From Cyclobacteriaceae bacterium (lineage in GTDB: Bacteria > Bacteroidota > Bacteroidia > Cytophagales > Cyclobacteriaceae), in contig JALONI010000016.1 of NCBI GenBank assembly GCA_025455015.1, positions 1-64,000 of the forward strand: a DNA stretch of 64,000 nt. Direction: 5' to 3'. Positions within the stretch are counted from its first letter, which is position 1. Every line of letters begins with the position of its first letter. Shown here piece by piece: positions 44,108 through 56,781 of this stretch. The notes under the pieces were generated by a model. That model was not told the DNA's origin. It saw only the letters and a list, made by a program, of their open reading frames with translations, and made no database searches. The translations under genes were made by a program, and so were the position numbers.

Positions 44108-44253
44108 AAGGCGACAAAAATAGGCATCCCGCGCCCAAAAAGCAGGCCGGGATATGCACGAGTTTCCCACAAACCATGCACCACCAGTCGCAAATCCCGG
44201 AAAAACACTTACCTTCATGTCTTGTTTTAGATTTATTACGTCTCCGAACGCCC

Positions 44254-46179
44254 ATGCTGATCACTCCCGGTAAACTGCTGTCGCAGATCGACAGCCCTGC
44301 CGACCTCAAAAAGCTTAGTCAGGCCGAACTGGTTACCCTATGCGAAGAACTGCGCCAGTTCATTGTCGACAACGTGTCAGTGTACGGAGGGCACTTTGGG
44401 GCCAGTCTGGGTGTGGTGGAGCTCACGGTGGCGCTGCACTACGTCTTCAACACCCCATACGACCAACTCGTGTGGGATGTGGGCCACCAGGCCTATGGCC
44501 ATAAAATCTTGACCGGCAGACGCGAGGTGTTTCACACCAACCGCATGTACCGGGGCATTTCAGGCTTTCCCAAACGAAACGAAAGCGAGTACGATACATT
44601 TGGCGTAGGGCACTCGTCCACGTCCGTATCGGCCGCGTTGGGCATGGCCGTAGCATCGGCCTACAAAAATGAGCGCGACCGCCAGCACGTAGCCGTGATT
44701 GGCGATGGCGCCCTTACCGGGGGCATGGCCTTTGAGGGATTGAACCACGCGGGCGTGGCCGATAGCAACATCCTCATCATCCTCAACGACAACTGCATGT
44801 CCATCGACCCCAATGTGGGCGCACTCAAGGACTACCTGACCGACATTACTACCTCCAAAACATACAACAAACTCAAGGACGAAGTGTGGAACTTGCTTGG
44901 CAAGCTCTCCACCTTTGGCAAAAGTGCGCAAGAGATTGTTTCGAAAGTTGAAAACGGGATCAAGTCCACCTTGCTCAGCCAAAGCAACCTGTTTGAGTCG
45001 CTGAACCTGCGCTACTTTGGCCCGGTGGATGGCCACGATGTGGACCACTTGGTGGCCGTGCTGAACGACCTGAAGAACATCAAAGGCCCCAAAATTCTCC
45101 ATTGCGTAACCGTGAAGGGAAAAGGCTATGGCCCGGCCGAGAAAGGCAACGCCACCACCTGGCATGCGCCCGGCACCTTTGACAAGATCACAGGCGAGAT
45201 TTACAAGAAAACATACGACACCCCGCAGCCACCCAAATACCAGGATGTGTTTGGCCACACGCTGGTGGAGCTGGCGAAAAGCAATAGCAAAATCGTGGGC
45301 ATCACCCCGGCCATGCCCTCGGGCTCCTCCCTGAACATGATGATGAAGGAGATGCCGGAGCGCGCATTTGATGTGGGCATTGCCGAGCAGCACGCGGTAA
45401 CGTTTTCGGCCGGGTTGGCCACCCAGGGCCTGGTGCCTTTCTGCAACATCTACAGCTCGTTTATGCAACGCGCCTATGACCAAGTCATCCACGATGTGTG
45501 CATCCAAAACTTACCGGTAAACTTTTGCTTGGACCGGGCCGGTTTCGCAGGGGCGGATGGCCCCACCCACCACGGGGCTTATGACATCGCCTACTTCCGC
45601 TGCATCCCCAACATGGTGGTGGCCGCACCAATGAATGAGCAAGAGTTGCGCAACCTCATGTACACCGCACAGCTTCCGCGCGAAGGCGGTGCCTTTTCGA
45701 TTCGCTACCCTCGCGGCCAGGGGGTGATGCCTCATTGGCGCACGCCCTTTGAAAAGATCGCCCTGGGTACGGGCCGCAAAATCAAAGACGGTGACGAAGT
45801 GGCCCTGCTCACCATTGGCCATATCGGAAACTATGCCGTGGCGGTGTGCGAACAGCTCTCCAAAGAGGGCCTTGAGATCGCGCACTATGACCTTCGGTTT
45901 GTAAAGCCGCTGGATGAGGCCATGCTGCACGAAGTGTTTTCGAAATACAAAAAAGTAATCACCGTGGAAGATGGCTGCCTGCAAGGCGGGATGGGCAGCG
46001 CAGTATTGGAATTTATGGCCGATCACGAATACCGCGCCTCCGTGAAGCGCTTGGGTATCCCCGATGATGTGATCGAACATGGCGAGCAGAGTGAGTTGCA
46101 TGCCGAGTGTGGCTTTGATGCTGCGGGCATCCGCAAGGCGGTGGAACACATGCTGGAACGCGTGCCTACGCTGGCCTGA
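44254..46179 (+). CDS. dxs: 1-deoxy-D-xylulose-5-phosphate synthase
   Basis: GGHFGASLGVVELTVALHYVFNTPYDQLVWDVGHQAYGHKILTGRR; VIGDGALTGGMAFEGLNHAG; GIAEQHAVTFSAGLA. Confidence 0.97.
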   Translation: MLITPGKLLSQIDSPADLKKLSQAELVTLCEELRQFIVDNVSVYGGHFGASLGVVELTVALHYVFNTPYDQLVWDVGHQAYGHKILTGRREVFHTNRMYRGISGFPKRNESEYDTFGVGHSSTSVSAALGMAVASAYKNERDRQHVAVIGDGALTGGMAFEGLNHAGVADSNILIILNDNCMSIDPNVGALKDYLTDITTSKTYNKLKDEVWNLLGKLSTFGKSAQEIVSKVENGIKSTLLSQSNLFESLNLRYFGPVDGHDVDHLVAVLNDLKNIKGPKILHCVTVKGKGYGPAEKGNATTWHAPGTFDKITGEIYKKTYDTPQPPKYQDVFGHTLVELAKSNSKIVGITPAMPSGSSLNMMMKEMPERAFDVGIAEQHAVTFSAGLATQGLVPFCNIYSSFMQRAYDQVIHDVCIQNLPVNFCLDRAGFAGADGPTHHGAYDIAYFRCIPNMVVAAPMNEQELRNLMYTAQLPREGGAFSIRYPRGQGVMPHWRTPFEKIALGTGRKIKDGDEVALLTIGHIGNYAVAVCEQLSKEGLEIAHYDLRFVKPLDEAMLHEVFSKYKKVITVEDGCLQGGMGSAVLEFMADHEYRASVKRLGIPDDVIEHGEQSELHAECGFDAAGIRKAVEHMLERVPTLA

Positions 46180-48900: not shown

Positions 48901-50559
48901 ATGAGCGCACAAAAACCTTGGTTGATCAGCTATCCTGAAAATGTGCCCCACGCCTGTCCGGCCAACCCGCACAAGGCCCTGGTGAACGTTTTTGAAGACG
49001 CTTTTTTGCGCTTCCGGCAAAAACCGGCCCTCACCAACATGGGTGCCACACTCACCTACGGGCAATTGGATGAACGATCGCGGCAGTTTGCCTCCTACCT
49101 GCAGCACCAAGCGGGCCTGAAGCCGGGCGACCGCATCGCTTTGCAGATGCCCAACGTCTTTCAATATCCCATCGCCTTCATCGGGGCGTTGCGGGCGGGT
49201 CTCACGGTGGTCAACACCAATCCGCTGTATACCCCGCGCGAGATGGAGTATCAATTCAAAGACAGCGGGGCTGTGGCCATTGTCATCGTAGCCAACTTTG
49301 CTTTTAACCTGGAGAAAATCCTGGCCCACACGTCCATCAAAACGGTGATTGTAACCGAATTGGGAGACCAGCTCGGGGGCCTCAAAAAGACGCTCGTCAA
49401 TTTCGTGGTCAAACGCATCAAGAAGATGGTGCCACCCTTTCACCTGCCGGGCGCGGTTCCGTTCAACAAGGCCCTGGAGCAAGGGGCCCAAAAGCCATTT
49501 CAAAAAATTGATCACCGCCCGGAAGACGTCATCCTGTTGCAGTACACGGGCGGCACTACCGGGTTTAGCAAAGGAGCCATGCTCACCAATGCTAACCTCA
49601 CGCATCACCTGGTGCAGTTTGGTTCGGTTTACGATGCGCACATCAAAGAGGATGATATTTGCATTGTGCCCCTGCCGGTGTATCACATCACGGCTCTGTT
49701 TGGCTTGATCTTTACACTCAGCCGCGGCCTCAAAGATGTGCTGATCACCAATCCGCGCGACATACCCGCGTTTGTAAAGGAGTTGCGTAAGCATCCGTTC
49801 ACCATGTTTTTTGGATTGAATACGCTGTACAACGCATTGCTCAACCACCCGGATTTCAATAAGGTCGATTTTTCGCGCGTGAAAGTATGCCTGGCCGGTG
49901 GTATGGCCATGCAAACGGTTGTGTCCGAGCGATGGGAAAAGCAAACGGGCGTGCCCATCCTGGAGGGCTACGGCTTGAGTGAGACGTCCCCCATCCTAAC
50001 CATCAACATGGTGGGCAAAAACCGCCAGGGTACGGTGGGATTGCCCATTCCCGGCACCGAAATACTCATTGCCGACAGCGAAGGCAAACCCGTGCCGCTG
50101 GGCGAGGCGGGCGAGCTATGTGCCCGCGGGCCGCAAGTCTTTCAGGGGTATTGGCAAAAAGACAACCGCGAAGTATTTCTGCCCGGGGGCTGGTTCAAAA
50201 CGGGCGACATCGCGCAGATGGATGAGGACGGCTACTTTCGCATTGTCGATCGAAAAAAAGACATGATCCTCGTGTCCGGATTCAACGTGTACCCCAACGA
50301 GATCGAAAACGTGGTGGCCAGCCACCCCAAGGTGTTGGAAGTGGCGGCCATCGGTGTGAAAGACGATCATTCGGGCGAAGTAGTCAAACTTTGTGTGGTC
50401 AAACGCGAGGCGTCACTGACCGAAGAGGAGCTCAAAGACTACTGCAAAGAAAACCTGACCGCCTACAAGCGGCCCAAGTACATCGAATTCAAGACCGAGT
50501 TGCCCAAGGCCAACACAGGCAAAATCCTGAGGCGCCTGCTGCGCGAGGTAGAGGCCTGA
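48901..50559 (+). CDS. fadD: Long-chain fatty acid-CoA ligase
   Basis: LLQYTGGTTGFSKGAMLTNANL; GYGLSETSPILTIN; GWFKTGDIAQMDEDGYFRIVDRKKDMILVSGFNVYPNEIE. Confidence 0.95.
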   Translation: MSAQKPWLISYPENVPHACPANPHKALVNVFEDAFLRFRQKPALTNMGATLTYGQLDERSRQFASYLQHQAGLKPGDRIALQMPNVFQYPIAFIGALRAGLTVVNTNPLYTPREMEYQFKDSGAVAIVIVANFAFNLEKILAHTSIKTVIVTELGDQLGGLKKTLVNFVVKRIKKMVPPFHLPGAVPFNKALEQGAQKPFQKIDHRPEDVILLQYTGGTTGFSKGAMLTNANLTHHLVQFGSVYDAHIKEDDICIVPLPVYHITALFGLIFTLSRGLKDVLITNPRDIPAFVKELRKHPFTMFFGLNTLYNALLNHPDFNKVDFSRVKVCLAGGMAMQTVVSERWEKQTGVPILEGYGLSETSPILTINMVGKNRQGTVGLPIPGTEILIADSEGKPVPLGEAGELCARGPQVFQGYWQKDNREVFLPGGWFKTGDIAQMDEDGYFRIVDRKKDMILVSGFNVYPNEIENVVASHPKVLEVAAIGVKDDHSGEVVKLCVVKREASLTEEELKDYCKENLTAYKRPKYIEFKTELPKANTGKILRRLLREVEA

Positions 50560-50562
50560 CGG

Positions 50563-51111
50563 TTAATCCTTGTCCTCTTCGTCAGCCTTTTGAATTTGTT
50601 CGTCCAAAATCTGTTCGATTAGCGCCCGCTGTTTTTCGTTGATCGTGTTGTCTAACTTGGCCTGGCGTTTCATAAACCGGAACATGGCGTTTTTCTTGAT
50701 TTCGTAGGCCATGAACACGGTGTATTTCTTCTCTTTTTCGTTGTAGAACTTTTCTTCGCCCATCTTACGTAAGTCGGCAATGCTCGTATTCATGGTCTGG
50801 CGTACCAGGCTTTGAAACTTGTCGGCCACATCGGCTGCATTTTCGTTTTCGGTTTGCCCCAGGTATTGGTCAGCCACTTGCTTCATGGTCGTGTTCACCT
50901 GACCGGCCAATTGGGCTTTGGCCTCAATATCCGCTTTGGCGCGCGCAATGTTGTCTTGCGAGCTTTCGCCTTTGCCGGTGCCGCGGAAAAAGCGGTTGTT
51001 GGACTCATACGCATTGCCGCTGAAAGGCTCGCGCACTTTTTTGCCGAGCACGCCCGAACTGCACGAGGCGATAACAAGCGCCAGTGCGCTGTAGAAAACC
51101 AAGTTTTTCAT
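50563..51111 (-). CDS. LPP20-like lipoprotein
   Basis: MKNLVFYSALALVIASCSS lipobox; RGTGKGESSQDNIARAKADIEAKAQLAGQV. Confidence 0.75.
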   Translation of the reverse strand: MKNLVFYSALALVIASCSSGVLGKKVREPFSGNAYESNNRFFRGTGKGESSQDNIARAKADIEAKAQLAGQVNTTMKQVADQYLGQTENENAADVADKFQSLVRQTMNTSIADLRKMGEEKFYNEKEKKYTVFMAYEIKKNAMFRFMKRQAKLDNTINEKQRALIEQILDEQIQKADEEDKD

Positions 51112-51240: not shown

Positions 51241-51696
51241 ATGAACCGCAAAGTATATAGTGCCAAACGAGGAGGCTTTTTTCTGTTAGCCGTTCTGCTG
51301 CCGTTGGCTTTTGCCGTTTGGGTGACGTATCGCTATGCGGCCGGGCTGGGCACCCTCATCCCGTTGCTGCCACTGGTGCCTACGGTGCTGTTCACCTGGT
51401 GGTTGTTCTTTGCCACCCGGTACTGGATTGAGGGTTCCTTTTTTCATTACCAATGCGGGTGGATGGTGGGCCGGATAGACATTCGTACGATACAAAAACT
51501 GGAAGTAGGCCGCACCTTGTGGGTGGGTACCAAACCCGCCCTGGGTTCGCGCGGCATCGTAATTCACGTTGGCAAGGTCGAAGAAATTTATGTAGCGCCC
51601 GAAGACAACGAGGTGCTTGTGCGCGATTTGCTGGCGGTCAATCCGGGCATTGACGTGTACGGCATGGCGGTGTCGCGCATCAATTCAACGCGGTAG
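51241..51696 (+). CDS. PH-domain-like membrane protein
   Basis: Two TM segments; YWIEGSFFHYQCGWMVGRIDIRTIQKLEVGRTL...APEDNEVLVRDLLAVNPGI. Confidence 0.75.
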   Translation: MNRKVYSAKRGGFFLLAVLLPLAFAVWVTYRYAAGLGTLIPLLPLVPTVLFTWWLFFATRYWIEGSFFHYQCGWMVGRIDIRTIQKLEVGRTLWVGTKPALGSRGIVIHVGKVEEIYVAPEDNEVLVRDLLAVNPGIDVYGMAVSRINSTR

Positions 51697-52401
51697 CATT
51701 GCTGCGGTGGTATCAATGACCAATTGCCACCGAAAGGCCCATCTCCACCGAAGCTTATAGCGTTCCAGGCCGGCCTCGGCCAGGATGTGTTTCCATTCGC
51801 TGCGCGTAAATGACCTTCGCACCGAAAGGGGGGCATCGAATTTGACCATCGCGGATCGCGAAAATGCCTGCGTAAGCCATTTGATCGAGTAGTAGGCAAG
51901 CGGGTGCCGGTGGATGTCGTTGACGACAATGGCCACGCGTGCTTGGGTTTTCAGGGATTGAAAAAGAGCGACCAGTTCGGCATGGGTAAAATGGTGGGTG
52001 AATAGCGTTGCCACGATGATGTCAAACGTTTGCTTTCGAAACGCGTCCGAAAAGACATTGACGGCCTCAAACGACAACTGCAGCTGTGGGTGATGCGCCC
52101 GCGCGAAGGCTACGATGTGGGGGTTGGCATCAATACCCACCCCGCGCATGGCGATGCCGTTTGCCTGGGCCCACCGCGCCACGCGCGCCAGCATGTCGCC
52201 ACTGCCACACCCCAGATCCGCAATGACCACCGGTGAAGCGGCCCGGGCCAGCAAGCGTTTAACAGCCGATAGCGTGACGGCATTGCCACCCAGCCACTTA
52301 TTGATGAAGTCCAGCTCACGCAGGGTCTGATCTACCACGGGCCCCCGGCATGCCAGGTCATCCATGATTTCTACTTCGGTGCTGCGCTGCGATAAGTTCA
52401 T
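51685..52401 (-). CDS. SAM-dependent methyltransferase (polyketide-associated)
   Basis: VVIADLGCGSGDMLARVARWA; ATGA overlap with upstream T3PKS. Confidence 0.9.
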   Translation of the reverse strand: MNLSQRSTEVEIMDDLACRGPVVDQTLRELDFINKWLGGNAVTLSAVKRLLARAASPVVIADLGCGSGDMLARVARWAQANGIAMRGVGIDANPHIVAFARAHHPQLQLSFEAVNVFSDAFRKQTFDIIVATLFTHHFTHAELVALFQSLKTQARVAIVVNDIHRHPLAYYSIKWLTQAFSRSAMVKFDAPLSVRRSFTRSEWKHILAEAGLERYKLRWRWAFRWQLVIDTTAAMLPR

Positions 52402-53504
52402 GCTTCGTTGTGGACAGACAGCACCATGCTCTCCAGCGTCAGGCCGGGGCCAAAGGCAAAGCTTAAAATCTTTTTGTCGCTATCCACGCCATTGAGCGTT
52501 GCCCGCAGCGCTTGCAACACAAAAAGCACTGTTGGGGATGACATGTTGCCGTGGTTGCGAAGCACCTGGTAGGCGTGTTGATTTTGTGTTTTGGTGATCG
52601 TGAGTGCCTCTTCGATGGCCTCCAGTATTTTCTTCCCGCCCGGGTGGATGGCAAAGTAGCTGATGTCGTCAAACGAAACATGCAAGTTGCCAAGCAGCGT
52701 GTTGGTCAATGCGCGGATGCCGTGTCGGATAATGTCAGGAACGTAGGAGGTCAGGCGCATTTCAAAGCCAAGGTCACCCACCGTCCACGCCATCTCGCGT
52801 TCCCCTTGCAGGGCCAGGTCACAAAAAAAGCCTTCGGGTTTCAAGTTGAGGCCTGCGCGCGGTTTTCCTTCTACCAACACCGCGGCTGAGCCATCGGCAA
52901 ACAACGCATTGGCCAGCAGGTTGTCTTCCGTGTTTTTCTTTTGAAAGTGGATGCTGCATAACTCTGTACACACCACCAGCACCTTGGCGTTCGCATCAGC
53001 TTGGCAAAAGGTATCCGCCAGCTTAATGCCGTTGAAGGCAGCATAGCACCCCATGAAGTTGATGCACAACCGCTGCACGTTGGAGCGTAGCCCAAGGGCT
53101 TTTACCAAGTCGATATCTAACCCCGGGGCGTACATGCCTGTGCAACTGACCACCACCAGGTGTGTAATGGCGCCCCACTGAAAGTCCGTAAGGTGCTTTA
53201 CTGCCTCCCGTATCGCGCGCTCACTCAAGGCCACTGAGTGTGTGCGATATAGTTCAAGCCGTTGCCGCGTGGTGGGAAAGGGCTCCATCGTGTCGGAGTT
53301 GGCATAAAAAGCAAATGCCTCGTGGCGACCATAGTCTTCGATGACGGAGTGCCGGAAGTCAATGCCCGTGGCGCGGTACAAGGCCCGAAGTTTGCGGGCT
53401 TCGTCACCCTCCAACTGCATGGCTTTGATCATAAAGTCTGCGATGGTCGATTGGGCCAGGCGCGTGGGTGGAGTGGCCGTGCCGAGGGCGGTAATAAAAC
53501 TCAT
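52398..53504 (-). CDS. Type III polyketide synthase (chalcone/stilbene synthase family)
   Basis: Active-site Cys INFMGCYAAFNGIKLADTFC; FAIHPGGKKILEAIEEAL; HGNMSSPTVLFVLQAL; FAFGPGLTLESMVL. Confidence 0.96.
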   Translation of the reverse strand: MSFITALGTATPPTRLAQSTIADFMIKAMQLEGDEARKLRALYRATGIDFRHSVIEDYGRHEAFAFYANSDTMEPFPTTRQRLELYRTHSVALSERAIREAVKHLTDFQWGAITHLVVVSCTGMYAPGLDIDLVKALGLRSNVQRLCINFMGCYAAFNGIKLADTFCQADANAKVLVVCTELCSIHFQKKNTEDNLLANALFADGSAAVLVEGKPRAGLNLKPEGFFCDLALQGEREMAWTVGDLGFEMRLTSYVPDIIRHGIRALTNTLLGNLHVSFDDISYFAIHPGGKKILEAIEEALTITKTQNQHAYQVLRNHGNMSSPTVLFVLQALRATLNGVDSDKKILSFAFGPGLTLESMVLSVHNEA

Positions 53505-53596
53505 GTGGTCAATTATACAAAATAACCCGCGCCTTTCGCGTATGGTTTCGGCAAGACGCAAAAAAATCAACTATCTTTCAGTTCTCTTGCTGTGCT

Positions 53597-54478
53597 ATGG
53601 TATCCACGCTGGCTCATTTGCGTTTTCCGTTTTCGTATTTTTTGCTGCCGGTGTATTTGTTCGCACTGGCTATCTCGCCCAACCTGGGCGAAAAGCGGCT
53701 GCTATGGTCTTTTATCATCATTCATGTGTTGCTGTATCCTGCCAGCAATGGATATAACAGTTACTTTGACAAAGACGAAAAGTCGATCGGTGGCCTGAAG
53801 AACCCGCCTCCGGTAAACAAGAGCTTGTACTATGCCGCCTGGGCACTGGATGTACTGGCGGTGGGCCTCGGGTGGTATTTCATCAACGCGCCTTTTGCGC
53901 TCCTGCTGTTGCTCTACGGGTTGGTGTCGAAAGCGTATAGCCACCCTTCGGTGCGATTGAAAAAATACCCGATTGGCGGGTGGCTTACGGTGTCCCTTTT
54001 TCAGGGATTCTTCACGTTTTTGATGTGCTACGTAGGCATCAATGGGTTTGGTTGGGGCAACTTGCTTCAGGCGAAAGTGTTGGTGCCGGCCACGCTTTCC
54101 ACGGTGTTGCTGCTGGGCACTTACCCGATGACGCAGGTCTACCAACACGAAGAAGACGCTGCCCGCGGAGACCGCACCCTGAGTCTGCTCCTGGGCATCC
54201 GCGGCACGTTTTGGTTTGTGTTGGTCGTATTTACCCTGGCCACCGCGGCCTTTGCCGCCTACTTCCATTTCTTTTTGGCGAACCGGTATGTGTGGGCCTT
54301 TGTGTTGGCCTTGGCACCCGTGGTGGTTTATTTCTTGATCTGGTTTTACCGCGTATACCGGCACCCCGCGGCCGCCAACTATGGCGGTACCATGTGGCTC
54401 AATTTTTTATCAGCCACGTGTTTGAATGCGTTTTTTATCTGGTTGTTTGCCGATTTAAGCCACATCGGACAGTTGTAG
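53597..54478 (+). CDS. UbiA-family prenyltransferase
   Basis: PASNGYNSYFDKDEKSIGGLKNPP; LGTYPMTQVYQHEEDAARGDRTLSLLLG; about 8 TM. Confidence 0.92.
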   Translation: MVSTLAHLRFPFSYFLLPVYLFALAISPNLGEKRLLWSFIIIHVLLYPASNGYNSYFDKDEKSIGGLKNPPPVNKSLYYAAWALDVLAVGLGWYFINAPFALLLLLYGLVSKAYSHPSVRLKKYPIGGWLTVSLFQGFFTFLMCYVGINGFGWGNLLQAKVLVPATLSTVLLLGTYPMTQVYQHEEDAARGDRTLSLLLGIRGTFWFVLVVFTLATAAFAAYFHFFLANRYVWAFVLALAPVVVYFLIWFYRVYRHPAAANYGGTMWLNFLSATCLNAFFIWLFADLSHIGQL

Positions 54479-54489
54479 TTTATCAAGCC

Positions 54490-55398
54490 ATGGACAAAAA
54501 AGAGATCACCTATCGTTTTGTGTATGCCGAACGGTGCAATATGTGTGGGCGCAACGATTTCAAAGTATTGGGCAAGCGGCTGAGCCAACACCAGGGCAGA
54601 AACCCAAGGCAAAAAATGGGGATCACCACCACCGTGGTGCAGTGCCGGACATGCGGGCTCATCTTCGCCAATCCGTTGCCCATACCCCACCGAATGGCCG
54701 ATCATTATGAAGTGGCGGTCGACCAGTACTTTGGCGAACACCTGAAGGAAATACCCGAAACCTATTTTCAACAGGAGATGGACACCTTCAAGGCCATTTA
54801 CCCCGCCAGGGTAGGTATGCGCGGCCTCGACATTGGTACGGGGCTAGGCGGTGTGATGAAGGCATTGGTTCGAAATGACGTGGACGCCTACGGGTTGGAG
54901 CCCTCCAAAAGTTTTTACGACTATGCCCTGACACGGGGGTTTGCGGATGACCGCCTGTTTAACCAGAGCCTGGAGGAGGCCTCTTTCCCCGACAGTTTTT
55001 TCGACCTGATTCTTTTCAGCGCGGTGTTTGAGCATTTGTATGACCCCAACCAGGCCTTGGTGAGCGCGCTAAGATGGTTAAAACCGGGAGGACTGGTGTA
55101 CATCAGTGTCCCCTCCAACCGGATATTGGTTCAACTACTGGCGAATCTGTTTTACCGCTTCAAGGGATTGGATTACGTGTCAAATATTTCTCCCATGCAC
55201 GCTCCGTTTCACTTGTATGAATTTGGAAAAGAAACGTTTGAGGAAAATGCCCGGTTGAATGACTACTCGATTGCCCAGTTTGATTTTTGGACAACGCACG
55301 ACTACGTATTCGCGAAGCCAAGCCCTGTCATTAAAAAGATAACTAAGCTTACACGAACGGACATGAACATGACCTTGTGGCTGCGGAAGAACGGATGA
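54490..55398 (+). CDS. Class I SAM methyltransferase with N-terminal zinc-ribbon-like motif
   Basis: CNMCG...CRTCGLIFANP; GLDIGTGLGGVMKALV; FDLILFSAVFEHLYDPNQALVSALRWLKPGGLVYISVPS. Confidence 0.92.
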   Translation: MDKKEITYRFVYAERCNMCGRNDFKVLGKRLSQHQGRNPRQKMGITTTVVQCRTCGLIFANPLPIPHRMADHYEVAVDQYFGEHLKEIPETYFQQEMDTFKAIYPARVGMRGLDIGTGLGGVMKALVRNDVDAYGLEPSKSFYDYALTRGFADDRLFNQSLEEASFPDSFFDLILFSAVFEHLYDPNQALVSALRWLKPGGLVYISVPSNRILVQLLANLFYRFKGLDYVSNISPMHAPFHLYEFGKETFEENARLNDYSIAQFDFWTTHDYVFAKPSPVIKKITKLTRTDMNMTLWLRKNG

Positions 55399-55560: not shown

Positions 55561-56781
55561 TTACGCGTAGGCCGCCAATACCGCTTCGACAGGCTGGGCG
55601 GTGGAAAAGAATTCCAACAGCCGGAGCATCACCCGATCGACCACGGTGTCCGGACAACTGGCCCCGCTGGTCAAAATGATTCTGAGGGGCCGTGCGTCCG
55701 GCAGGTAGCCGTGGGTGACCCTCTTTTCTTTTCGGTGGTAGATGAAGTGATGAATTTCGTTGGCCGATTTTATTTCCTGCTCACCACTGATAAAGTATGT
55801 AGCGAACTTTCGTTCGCACAGTTCCACAATGTGCGAGGTGTTGGAGCTGTTGTAGCCGCCTACCACCAATGCCAAATGGGCATCGGTTTTTAGCAGCTCG
55901 TAGGTGGCATCCTGGTTGTCGTTAGTGGCGTAGCACAACGTATCGCGTGTATCGGCAAAGTGCTGTTTAATGGCCTCTTCGCCATACCGTTGGGCCATTA
56001 CTTGCTTGAAGAAGTCGGCAATGGCTTGGGTTTCCGTGGCCAGCATAGTGGTTTGATTCACCACGCCTACGCGCAGTAAATCACTTTCGGGATCAAAGCC
56101 TGAAGAGTATTTGCCCGCAAACTCGTCATAGAACTCCGCCTTCGTTTTGCTGCCCAGCAGGTAATTGGCCAGCCGCTGCGCCTCTTCCATGTCACGCACT
56201 ATTACGGCCGGCCCGCTGCGGGCGCTGTGCGAGAAGGTGGCGCGTGTTTCTTCGTGTTTTGGCTTGCCGTGAATGATCACGGTGTAATGGTCCTTGCCCA
56301 GTTTATCGGCCCGGTTCCAAACCTTTTCCACAAAGGGGCACGTGGTATTGTATTTCTGAAGTTCCACCCCTTTGTCCAGCAGCAAGTGCTCAATTTCGAG
56401 CGTGGTACCGAAGGCCGGGATAATCACCACGTCATCCTGGCTGATTTCATTCCAGGGGATAAACTGCGTACCATCGGTGTCCATAATGAACCGGATACCC
56501 CGGCTGCGCAGGTCTTCATTCACCTCAGGATTATGGATCATCTGGCTTAGCAGCAACACGTTCTTCCCCGGGTTTTCTTCCAGCGCCTTGTAACTGATTT
56601 CGATTGCATTTTCTACGCCATAGCAAAAGCCAAAATGGCGCGGCAGGATGAACTGAACCGGCCCAAAGTCCACCGTCACGGGAGAGAAATCCTGCTTGCG
56701 CAAGTCTTGCTTTCTGCGTGCTTCCTTGATGCGCCCGGTGATGGACGATCGGTAGTGGGCCGGTATCTCGAATTTTTTGAT
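55561..56781 (-). CDS. ispH: 4-hydroxy-3-methylbut-2-enyl diphosphate reductase (start codon uncertain)
   Basis: ARHFGFCYGVENAIEIS-type LPRHFGFCYGVENAIEI, LLSQMIHNPEVNEDL, TTCPFVEKVW, HGKPKHEETRATFSHS, GASCPDTVVDRVM; ORF track begins at TTG 56703 but frame is open to 56781 and beyond. Confidence 0.93.
   Translation of the reverse strand: MKKFEIPAHYRSSITGRIKEARRKQDLRKQDFSPVTVDFGPVQFILPRHFGFCYGVENAIEISYKALEENPGKNVLLLSQMIHNPEVNEDLRSRGIRFIMDTDGTQFIPWNEISQDDVVIIPAFGTTLEIEHLLLDKGVELQKYNTTCPFVEKVWNRADKLGKDHYTVIIHGKPKHEETRATFSHSARSGPAVIVRDMEEAQRLANYLLGSKTKAEFYDEFAGKYSSGFDPESDLLRVGVVNQTTMLATETQAIADFFKQVMAQRYGEEAIKQHFADTRDTLCYATNDNQDATYELLKTDAHLALVVGGYNSSNTSHIVELCERKFATYFISGEQEIKSANEIHHFIYHRKEKRVTHGYLPDARPLRIILTSGASCPDTVVDRVMLRLLEFFSTAQPVEAVLAAYA

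Follow-up and report, generated by a model that had tools for sequence, protein, structure and literature searches.

A type III polyketide synthase, a methyltransferase, an FAD oxidoreductase and a divergent UbiA protein are inherited together in Cytophagales and probably build a prenylated phenolic lipid

Known routes to oxidized and prenylated phenolic lipids

The closest described system is agqA-D of Actinoplanes missouriensis, which yields 6-alkyl-4-O-dihydrogeranyl-2-methoxyhydroquinones (Awakawa et al. 2011, as cited in PMC10896814, PMC7692728 and PMC3569393). As summarized there, the product implies that a type III polyketide synthase (T3PKS) makes alkylresorcinols and that hydroxylation, methylation and prenylation follow. 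The likeness to the gene set described here is one of implied activities: the four gene families are present and co-inherited, but in another phylum (Bacteroidota), with altered UbiA motifs, with UbiA divergent from or fused to T3PKS, and order-wide.

Plant meroterpenoids such as cannabigerolic acid and daurichromenic acid also begin with an alkylresorcinol-type ring made by a T3PKS and prenylated by a membrane UbiA, a separate cyclase forming the acid in cannabis. Only this logic is shared; the assembly is unrelated and the comparison is an analogy. In the srs cluster of Streptomyces griseus, a methyltransferase and an FAD hydroxylase act after the T3PKS SrsA, and we know of no UbiA prenyltransferase in it. 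The SrsA alkylresorcinol is oxidized to alkylquinone phenolic lipids (PMC10896814), and it is by this description that srs resembles our set. The cyanobacterial hidABC cluster (hierridins) and the planctomycete mtr-fdo-t3pks cluster combine a methyltransferase, an FAD oxidoreductase and a T3PKS in one operon (PMC8086630, PMC10896814), an arrangement found in Pedobacter but not in our source genome, where the FAD oxidoreductase (FDO) gene is on another contig. They lack a UbiA partner; the exception is one Raphidiopsis cluster, in which a prenyltransferase has been reported (PMC8086630). The Paludisphaera T3PKS and methyltransferase were 38% and 28% identical to the window proteins, and its FDO was 26% identical to that of Pedobacter.

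T3PKS clusters of Bacteroidota have repeatedly been flagged by genome mining; in the literature searched, we found no product for clusters of this type.

Layout of the locus

The window, i.e., the whole 64,000-nucleotide stretch of DNA that was analyzed, comes from a Cyclobacteriaceae bacterium. All ORFs and coordinates of an initial annotation checked out, and its gene identities (T3PKS, two methyltransferases, UbiA, acyl-CoA ligase and ispH) were supported by Pfam. The features are as follows.

48901..50559, plus strand: FadD-like acyl-CoA ligase; adjacency specific to the source genome, outside the conserved module
50563..51111, minus strand: P8, small putative lipoprotein, downstream of MT1 in Cyclobacteriaceae-like genomes
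51685..52401, minus strand: MT1, class I SAM methyltransferase (PRK06202-like); ATGA overlap with the T3PKS stop
52398..53504, minus strand: T3PKS; start MSFITALGTATP; Cys153-His287-Asn320
53505..53596, no strand: T3PKS/UbiA divergent intergenic region, 92 bp
53597..54478, plus strand: UbiA-superfamily protein, predicted prenyltransferase; metal motifs altered (N54, S55, D58, D60; Q180, Q183, D187)
54490..55398, plus strand: MT2, zinc-ribbon methyltransferase; local neighbor only, outside the conserved module
55561..56703, minus strand: IspH, the shortest ORF listed, with upstream extension possible; adjacency not kept in relatives, outside the module
G000:C53:31060-32166, other contig of the same genome: FDO, FAD oxidoreductase, the fourth partner

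Pfam matches were PF00195 (5e-30) and PF02797 (7e-22) for T3PKS and PF01040 (7e-17) for UbiA; MT1 and MT2 were recognized as two class I methyltransferases, and the FadD-like ligase and IspH were matched as well. The ATGA overlap at 52398-52401, the 92-bp divergent gap and the 11 nt between UbiA and MT2 were read in the sequence as annotated, as were two CxxC pairs in MT2.

The conserved gene set and its co-inheritance

T3PKS, MT1 and UbiA belong together, and the cluster boundaries drawn initially were wrong. Neighbor clustering of 81 loci (80 relatives and the window) found T3PKS in 81, MT1 in 67, UbiA in 64 and FDO in 52; the window's own UbiA is missing from its count, since the ORF caller kept a longer ORF that overlaps it. 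MT1 adjoined T3PKS in 67 of the 80 related loci, and UbiA lay upstream of and divergent to T3PKS in 64 of the 80 related loci, usually across a gap of ~30 to 130 bp. In Pedobacter, FDO joins the T3PKS-MT1 operon, the three genes being contiguous or overlapping with UbiA divergent, and such contiguity was also seen in other relatives. Furthermore, in four genomes of one genus UbiA and T3PKS were fused in frame into a single ORF of 652 aa, with MT1 and FDO coming after it; the fusion may be made as one full-length protein or be initiated separately at an in-frame TTG. The remark that no aromatic oxidoreductase lies within the cluster holds for the locus but not for the genome, which has an FDO on another contig that co-occurs with T3PKS. 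The window contains three genes (T3PKS, MT1 and UbiA) of a four-enzyme pathway.

In Cytophagales, an order of environmental bacteria, the four-gene pathway is retained or lost as a whole. All four genes were present in 118 and none in 47 of 195 genomes. T3PKS and UbiA occurred together in 140 and were both absent from 48, with 3 and 4 genomes carrying only one of them (p ~4e-37, uncorrected for phylogeny). They were adjacent in 65 of these 140 genomes and at least 335 kb apart on one contig in 15, so their pairing cannot be put down to linkage alone. T3PKS and FDO were both present in 133 genomes, both absent from 50 and discordant in 12, and T3PKS was accompanied by MT1 in 123. The set mostly occurs in a single copy. 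Several families contain both genomes with it and genomes without it, and so does one genus, in which genome G144 has no set. Separation of the genes in relatives had been named as an outcome that would refute the original grouping; it was observed for MT2, while UbiA ran counter to the expectation, being often unlinked yet still co-inherited.

Among the genomes with T3PKS, 20 were without MT1 and 10 without FDO. These gaps count against the proposed four-enzyme pathway.

The actual gene set is now defined as T3PKS, MT1, FDO and UbiA, and in most of the order these genes are inherited together even where they lie scattered on the chromosome. The compact Pedobacter operons and the natural UbiA-T3PKS fusion are tractable targets.

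T3PKS and FDO

The T3PKS is a member of its family by Pfam scores over the cut-off, the Cys-His-Asn triad and a matching fold. The catalytic residues C153, H287 and N320 were invariant in 24 relatives, and the AlphaFold2 model (pLDDT 92) was closest to the solved folds of Ectocarpus PKS1, the Mycobacterium marinum T3PKS, PKS18 and Steely1 (TM ~0.86 to 0.9). A T3PKS tree with outgroups was set aside for its poor resolution and very long branches.

FDO was equally close to ring hydroxylases, geranylgeranyl reductases and FADH2 halogenases. Its best NCBIfam match was the geranylgeranyl reductase superfamily, and given this proximity it might reduce a prenyl chain. Its top PDB sequence matches were halogenases; the WxWxI halogenase motif (WxWxIP in full) was absent from the genome's own FDO, P0009 and the comparators, and a role as an FADH2-dependent halogenase was rejected on this ground.

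Proposed pathway and alternative products

The initial idea of a prenylated, methylated phenolic lipid fits the conserved gene set. By analogy to agqA-D, we consider it probable that the four enzymes make a prenylated methoxy-(hydro)quinone phenolic lipid. T3PKS would extend a fatty-acyl thioester with malonyl-CoA and cyclize it to an alkylresorcinol-type ring, which FDO would hydroxylate to the hydroquinone level and MT1 would O-methylate, and UbiA, acting in the membrane, would attach the isoprenoid tail. The product is probably an oily, prenyl-tagged phenol. We infer the starter, ring type and step order, as well as the prenyl length, C- or O-attachment and biological role. An alkylresorcinol-type ring is suggested by the UbiA and FDO partners and by planctomycete relatives, while the T3PKS sequence alone would fit an alkylpyrone equally. 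Homologous T3PKS-MT-FDO triads without UbiA occur in Planctomycetota and Deinococcota, and the planctomycete type starts with alkylresorcinols (PMC10896814).

Co-expression of the planctomycete FDO and methyltransferase pointed to probable C-methylation and left the role of FDO open (PMC10896814). This result counts against the proposed scheme.

The enzymes also mirror the ubiquinone route (ring source, UbiA, flavin hydroxylase and O-methyltransferase), which could mean that the product is a redox-active prenylated benzoquinone that acts as an antioxidant or carries electrons in an auxiliary role. FDO weakly matched UbiH/Ubi-OHases and MT1 weakly matched UbiE/UbiG, the set occurs widely (118 of 195 genomes) and mostly once per genome, the source genome has a separate MenA, and polyketide quinones carry electrons at low oxygen in M. 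tuberculosis, according to work cited in PMC10896814. However, all Ubi-family matches were far below the cut-off, and MK-7 was reported as the sole respiratory quinone of the one relevant strain checked, a Sphingobacterium that has a T3PKS cluster (PMC8448689), so a major additional quinone is unlikely. We hold a polyketide quinone to be rather unlikely. In its broadest form, the idea would be that most Cytophagales and many other Bacteroidia use ubiquinone-like logic, with a T3PKS-made ring and an altered-motif UbiA, to make an undescribed isoprenoid-tailed polyketide quinone lipid that has a redox or protective function in the membrane beside menaquinone; this is speculative and, in our judgment, unlikely.

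There is a similarly small chance that the product is a methylated, perhaps prenylated alkylpyrone lipid and that FDO reduces a prenyl or acyl chain instead of hydroxylating the ring. The nearest solved T3PKS sequences included PKS18 and other pyrone synthases, and the NCBIfam match of FDO would suit a reductase. On the other hand, UbiA acceptors are typically aromatic (PMC7839719), and the triads without a nearby UbiA speak against FDO as a prenyl reductase.

Altered metal motifs in a divergent UbiA subfamily

A profile search of the PDB with the UbiA alignment gave no match at E 0.001, and a fold search was therefore used. The AlphaFold2 model (pLDDT 93) had approximately nine membrane helices, and its best 16 PDB matches were all UbiA-superfamily structures (e.g., 4tq4, 7bpu, 8djk and 4od4). 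In place of the canonical NDxxDxxxD and DxxxD motifs, the protein has NSxxDxD and QxxQHxxD, a reading also made by alignment with the genome's own canonical UbiAs. N54, S55, D58, D60, Q180, Q183 and D187 were invariant in 68 sequences. S55 and Q183 stand where NDxxD and DxxxD have aspartates, and with these two missing, use of a prenyl diphosphate is uncertain. The model and the half-canonical motifs are consistent with a divergent UbiA-fold subfamily of predicted prenyltransferases, now named as one with systematically replaced metal-binding residues that is biochemically testable. A search of plasmid records returned no member of the subfamily. A menaquinone or heme O enzyme was ruled out, since the source genome has separate MenA and CyoE and a third canonical UbiA.

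The invariant replacement of both aspartates would also suit a protein that is not a prenyltransferase, e.g., a cyclase working within the membrane or a scaffold without activity. We regard this as improbable, because N54, D58, D187 and the flanking motif were likewise invariant in the 68 sequences and the UbiA fold was predicted with high confidence.

Neighbors outside the module

The initial annotation had placed MT2 in one locus with T3PKS, MT1 and UbiA and had noted FadD and ispH on its flanks, with FadD as a plausible starter supplier. The neighborhood comparison upheld T3PKS, MT1 and UbiA as a unit, but MT2 and FadD were near T3PKS in 0 and IspH in 2 of 80 related loci. Synteny and co-occurrence thus reject all three as pathway members. 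Across the 195 genomes, MT2 presence was independent of T3PKS (Fisher p=1), and MT2 was present in G144, a genome without the other genes. A local T3PKS-MT1-UbiA-MT2 cluster with FadD supplying the starter is therefore highly improbable, even if the 11-nt spacing would permit co-transcription of MT2 with UbiA. MT2 often adjoined glycosyltransferase genes and was also seen next to surface-polysaccharide-like ones.

The next most common neighbor of T3PKS was the P8 lipoprotein, found in 39 of 81 loci and limited to certain lineages. Kept in only part of the sample, P8 was rejected as a core part, and it is probably a syntenic neighbor rather than an enzyme.

The T3PKS belongs to a conserved gene set

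The initial annotation proposed a compact locus of a type III polyketide synthase (T3PKS), two methyltransferases (MT1 and MT2) and a UbiA prenyltransferase-superfamily gene. Every ORF it named was present in the window, and family scans concurred:

48901-50559, +, FadD-like
51685-52401, -, MT1
52398-53504, -, T3PKS (Cys153 in the motif NFMGCYAA)
53597-54478, +, UbiA
54490-55398, +, MT2, zinc-ribbon methyltransferase
55561-56703, -, IspH

The T3PKS triad C153/H287/N320 was unvaried in 24 relatives, and the confident structure model (pLDDT 92) matched solved T3PKSs at TM 0.86-0.9. The nearest relatives of the window are MAGs of Cyclobacteriaceae-like Cytophagales. We clustered all proteins neighboring the T3PKS in 81 loci (80 related loci and the window). 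The families present at most loci were T3PKS (81/81), MT1 (67), UbiA (64, omitting the window's own UbiA, which was masked by a longer overlapping ORF in mechanical ORF calling) and a FAD-dependent oxidoreductase (FDO; 52). A fifth family, a lipoprotein found at 39 loci, was lineage-limited. The annotated ORFs and positions stood, but among the loci compared, MT2 and FadD were near the T3PKS in the window alone, and the suggestion that FadD supplies the starter had no comparative support. IspH was near the T3PKS in the window and two other loci.

The annotation also saw no aromatic oxidoreductase in the cluster. This holds for the window locus (G000:C145:1-64000), but the genome (3.4 Mb, 154 contigs) carries an FDO on a separate contig (G000:C53:31060-32166), with 49% identity to the Pedobacter FDO. 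Its adjoining gene, Tat/TIM-barrel-like, is the same one that comes after the FDO in sister genomes. The Pedobacter layout is UbiA(-) / T3PKS(+) MT1(+) FDO(+), with genes abutting or overlapping; many Cyclobacteriaceae-like loci have their FDO past UbiA, 0.9-2.7 kb upstream of the T3PKS.

Several features of the surroundings were recorded. A dxs-like ORF (44176-46179) and ispH (55561-56703), both of the MEP pathway, flank the cluster on two sides about 10 kb apart; the ispH placement is not kept in relatives. A putative 182-aa lipoprotein (window:50563-51111) without a Pfam match shows 60-82% identity among Cyclobacteriaceae-like loci, often above the adjoining pathway enzymes. MT2 is sporadic and elsewhere adjoins glycosyltransferase-like or surface-polysaccharide-like genes (L115, L118, L119).

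Co-inheritance across genomes

Each protein was searched against one common set of 195 genomes from the order. T3PKS, MT1, FDO and UbiA were all present in 118 and all absent from 47. Counts for both, T3PKS only, partner only and neither were 140, 3, 4 and 48 for UbiA, 133, 10, 2 and 50 for FDO, and 123, 20, 2 and 50 for MT1 (Fisher p 1e-27 to 4e-37 for gene pairings, phylogeny ignored). MT2 was independent of the T3PKS (8, 135, 2 and 50; p=1). Even so, the whole set was absent from G144, a member of the window's own genus, and, in several families that otherwise carry it, from individual genomes.

In the 140 genomes with both genes, T3PKS and UbiA were adjacent in 65, near in 1, on the same contig at least 335 kb apart in 15 and on separate contigs in 59, some of the last due to assembly fragmentation. 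Given the 15 distant pairs, chromosomal linkage alone is insufficient to explain the pairing. In a phylum-wide sample of 297 genomes, T3PKSs of class Bacteroidia above ~40% identity were mostly paired with UbiA; those of other families, at ~30% identity, were not.

FDO and the proposed pathway

The FDO is a group-A flavoprotein, kin to geranylgeranyl reductases, UbiH-like hydroxylases and FADH2 halogenases; the WxWxI motif was not found in it. T3PKS-MT-FDO triads with no UbiA nearby were seen in Deinococcus and Paludisphaera, and a Psychrobacter plasmid has a looser set. The T3PKS and MT of these sets are homologues of the window's; the Paludisphaera FDO shows only 26% identity to the Pedobacter FDO, and the Deinococcus flavoprotein gave no match to the FDO at E 1e-5. 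Since triads exist without nearby UbiA, the polyketide ring, not the prenyl chain, is the most likely target of the FDO.

Genomes of genus g34 with a divergent T3PKS have FDO and MT1 beside it and lack UbiA. In one g34 genome without the UbiA (G059, L131:3870-6847), FDO-MT1 is followed by a different T3PKS at 28% identity and then by what looks like a fatty-acid/type II PKS gene set with reductase, KS and phosphopantetheinyl transferase-like members. Bacteroidota-like T3PKSs (47-48% identity) also occur in gammaproteobacteria, on the Psychrobacter plasmid with FDO and MT (L140:5995-8818) and on a Tatlockia-labelled MAG contig (L111:2539-3624), which suggests horizontal transfer or misbinning.

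In the best-supported route, the T3PKS would form an alkylresorcinol-type ring, FDO would hydroxylate it, MT1 would O-methylate it and UbiA would prenylate it within the membrane; the product would be a prenylated methoxy-hydroquinone lipid. What the analysis establishes is the gene content, the co-inheritance and the folds, and each chemical step is inferred. Actinoplanes missouriensis agqA-D yields 6-alkyl-4-O-dihydrogeranyl-2-methoxyhydroquinones (PMC3569393, PMC7692728), its alkylresorcinols being later prenylated and hydroxylated (PMC10896814). Methylated alkylresorcinols are products of hidABC and planctomycete mtr-fdo-t3pks operons (PMC10896814, PMC8086630), and one Raphidiopsis hierridin-like cluster has an added prenyltransferase (PMC8086630). 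The Bacteroidota set would work like agq, a likeness of activities, and may be a member of the agq type. No product of it was found in searches of openly accessible papers. The set is a variation on an already known type of system, new in form. The initial annotation is borne out in part, both as an observation and in its interpretation; gained over it are the right gene set with its missing oxidoreductase, the co-inheritance, the altered UbiA motif and fusion ORFs.

UbiA motifs and UbiA-T3PKS fusions

The confident window UbiA model (pLDDT 93) had top PDB matches all within the UbiA superfamily. Solved structures show NDxxDxxxD and DxxxD together with prenyl diphosphate and Mg2+ (PMC7839719), whereas 68 sequences of this family have NSxxDxD (N54, S55, D58, D60) and QxxQHxxD (Q180, Q183, D187). 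Aligned to MenA of the same genome, Q183 and D187 are the first and second Asp positions of DxxxD; aligned to another canonical UbiA, S55 is the Asp position of ND. The remaining UbiAs of the genome (CyoE, MenA and a third) retain the usual motifs. On a plasmid of Streptomyces sp. NBC_01237 (L143:4013-6056), a T3PKS is divergent from a UbiA-like gene with canonical NDxxDxxxD, apparently an independent association.

Four genomes belonging to a single genus (G073, G184, G159 and G127) have UbiA and T3PKS as one stop-free ORF of 652 residues, in frame with zero linker and followed by overlapping MT1 and FDO:

L121:4006-5964, fusion ORF
L122:1991-3949, fusion ORF
L123:1624-3582, fusion ORF
L124:3670-5628, fusion ORF

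The junction is conserved (...INRIPLSYISAI...). The T3PKS may be separately initiated, since all four ORFs have an in-frame TTG exactly at its start. Model helices and motif positions suggest nine helices, N-in, for UbiA; this topology would place the fused T3PKS on the outer face of the membrane, a location difficult to square with its use of malonyl-CoA. Judged by eye, the fused cluster has an isoprenoid neighborhood in L121, L122 and L124, with IPP isomerase-like and carotenoid hydroxylase-like genes in all three flanks and a phytoene synthase-like gene in that of L121.
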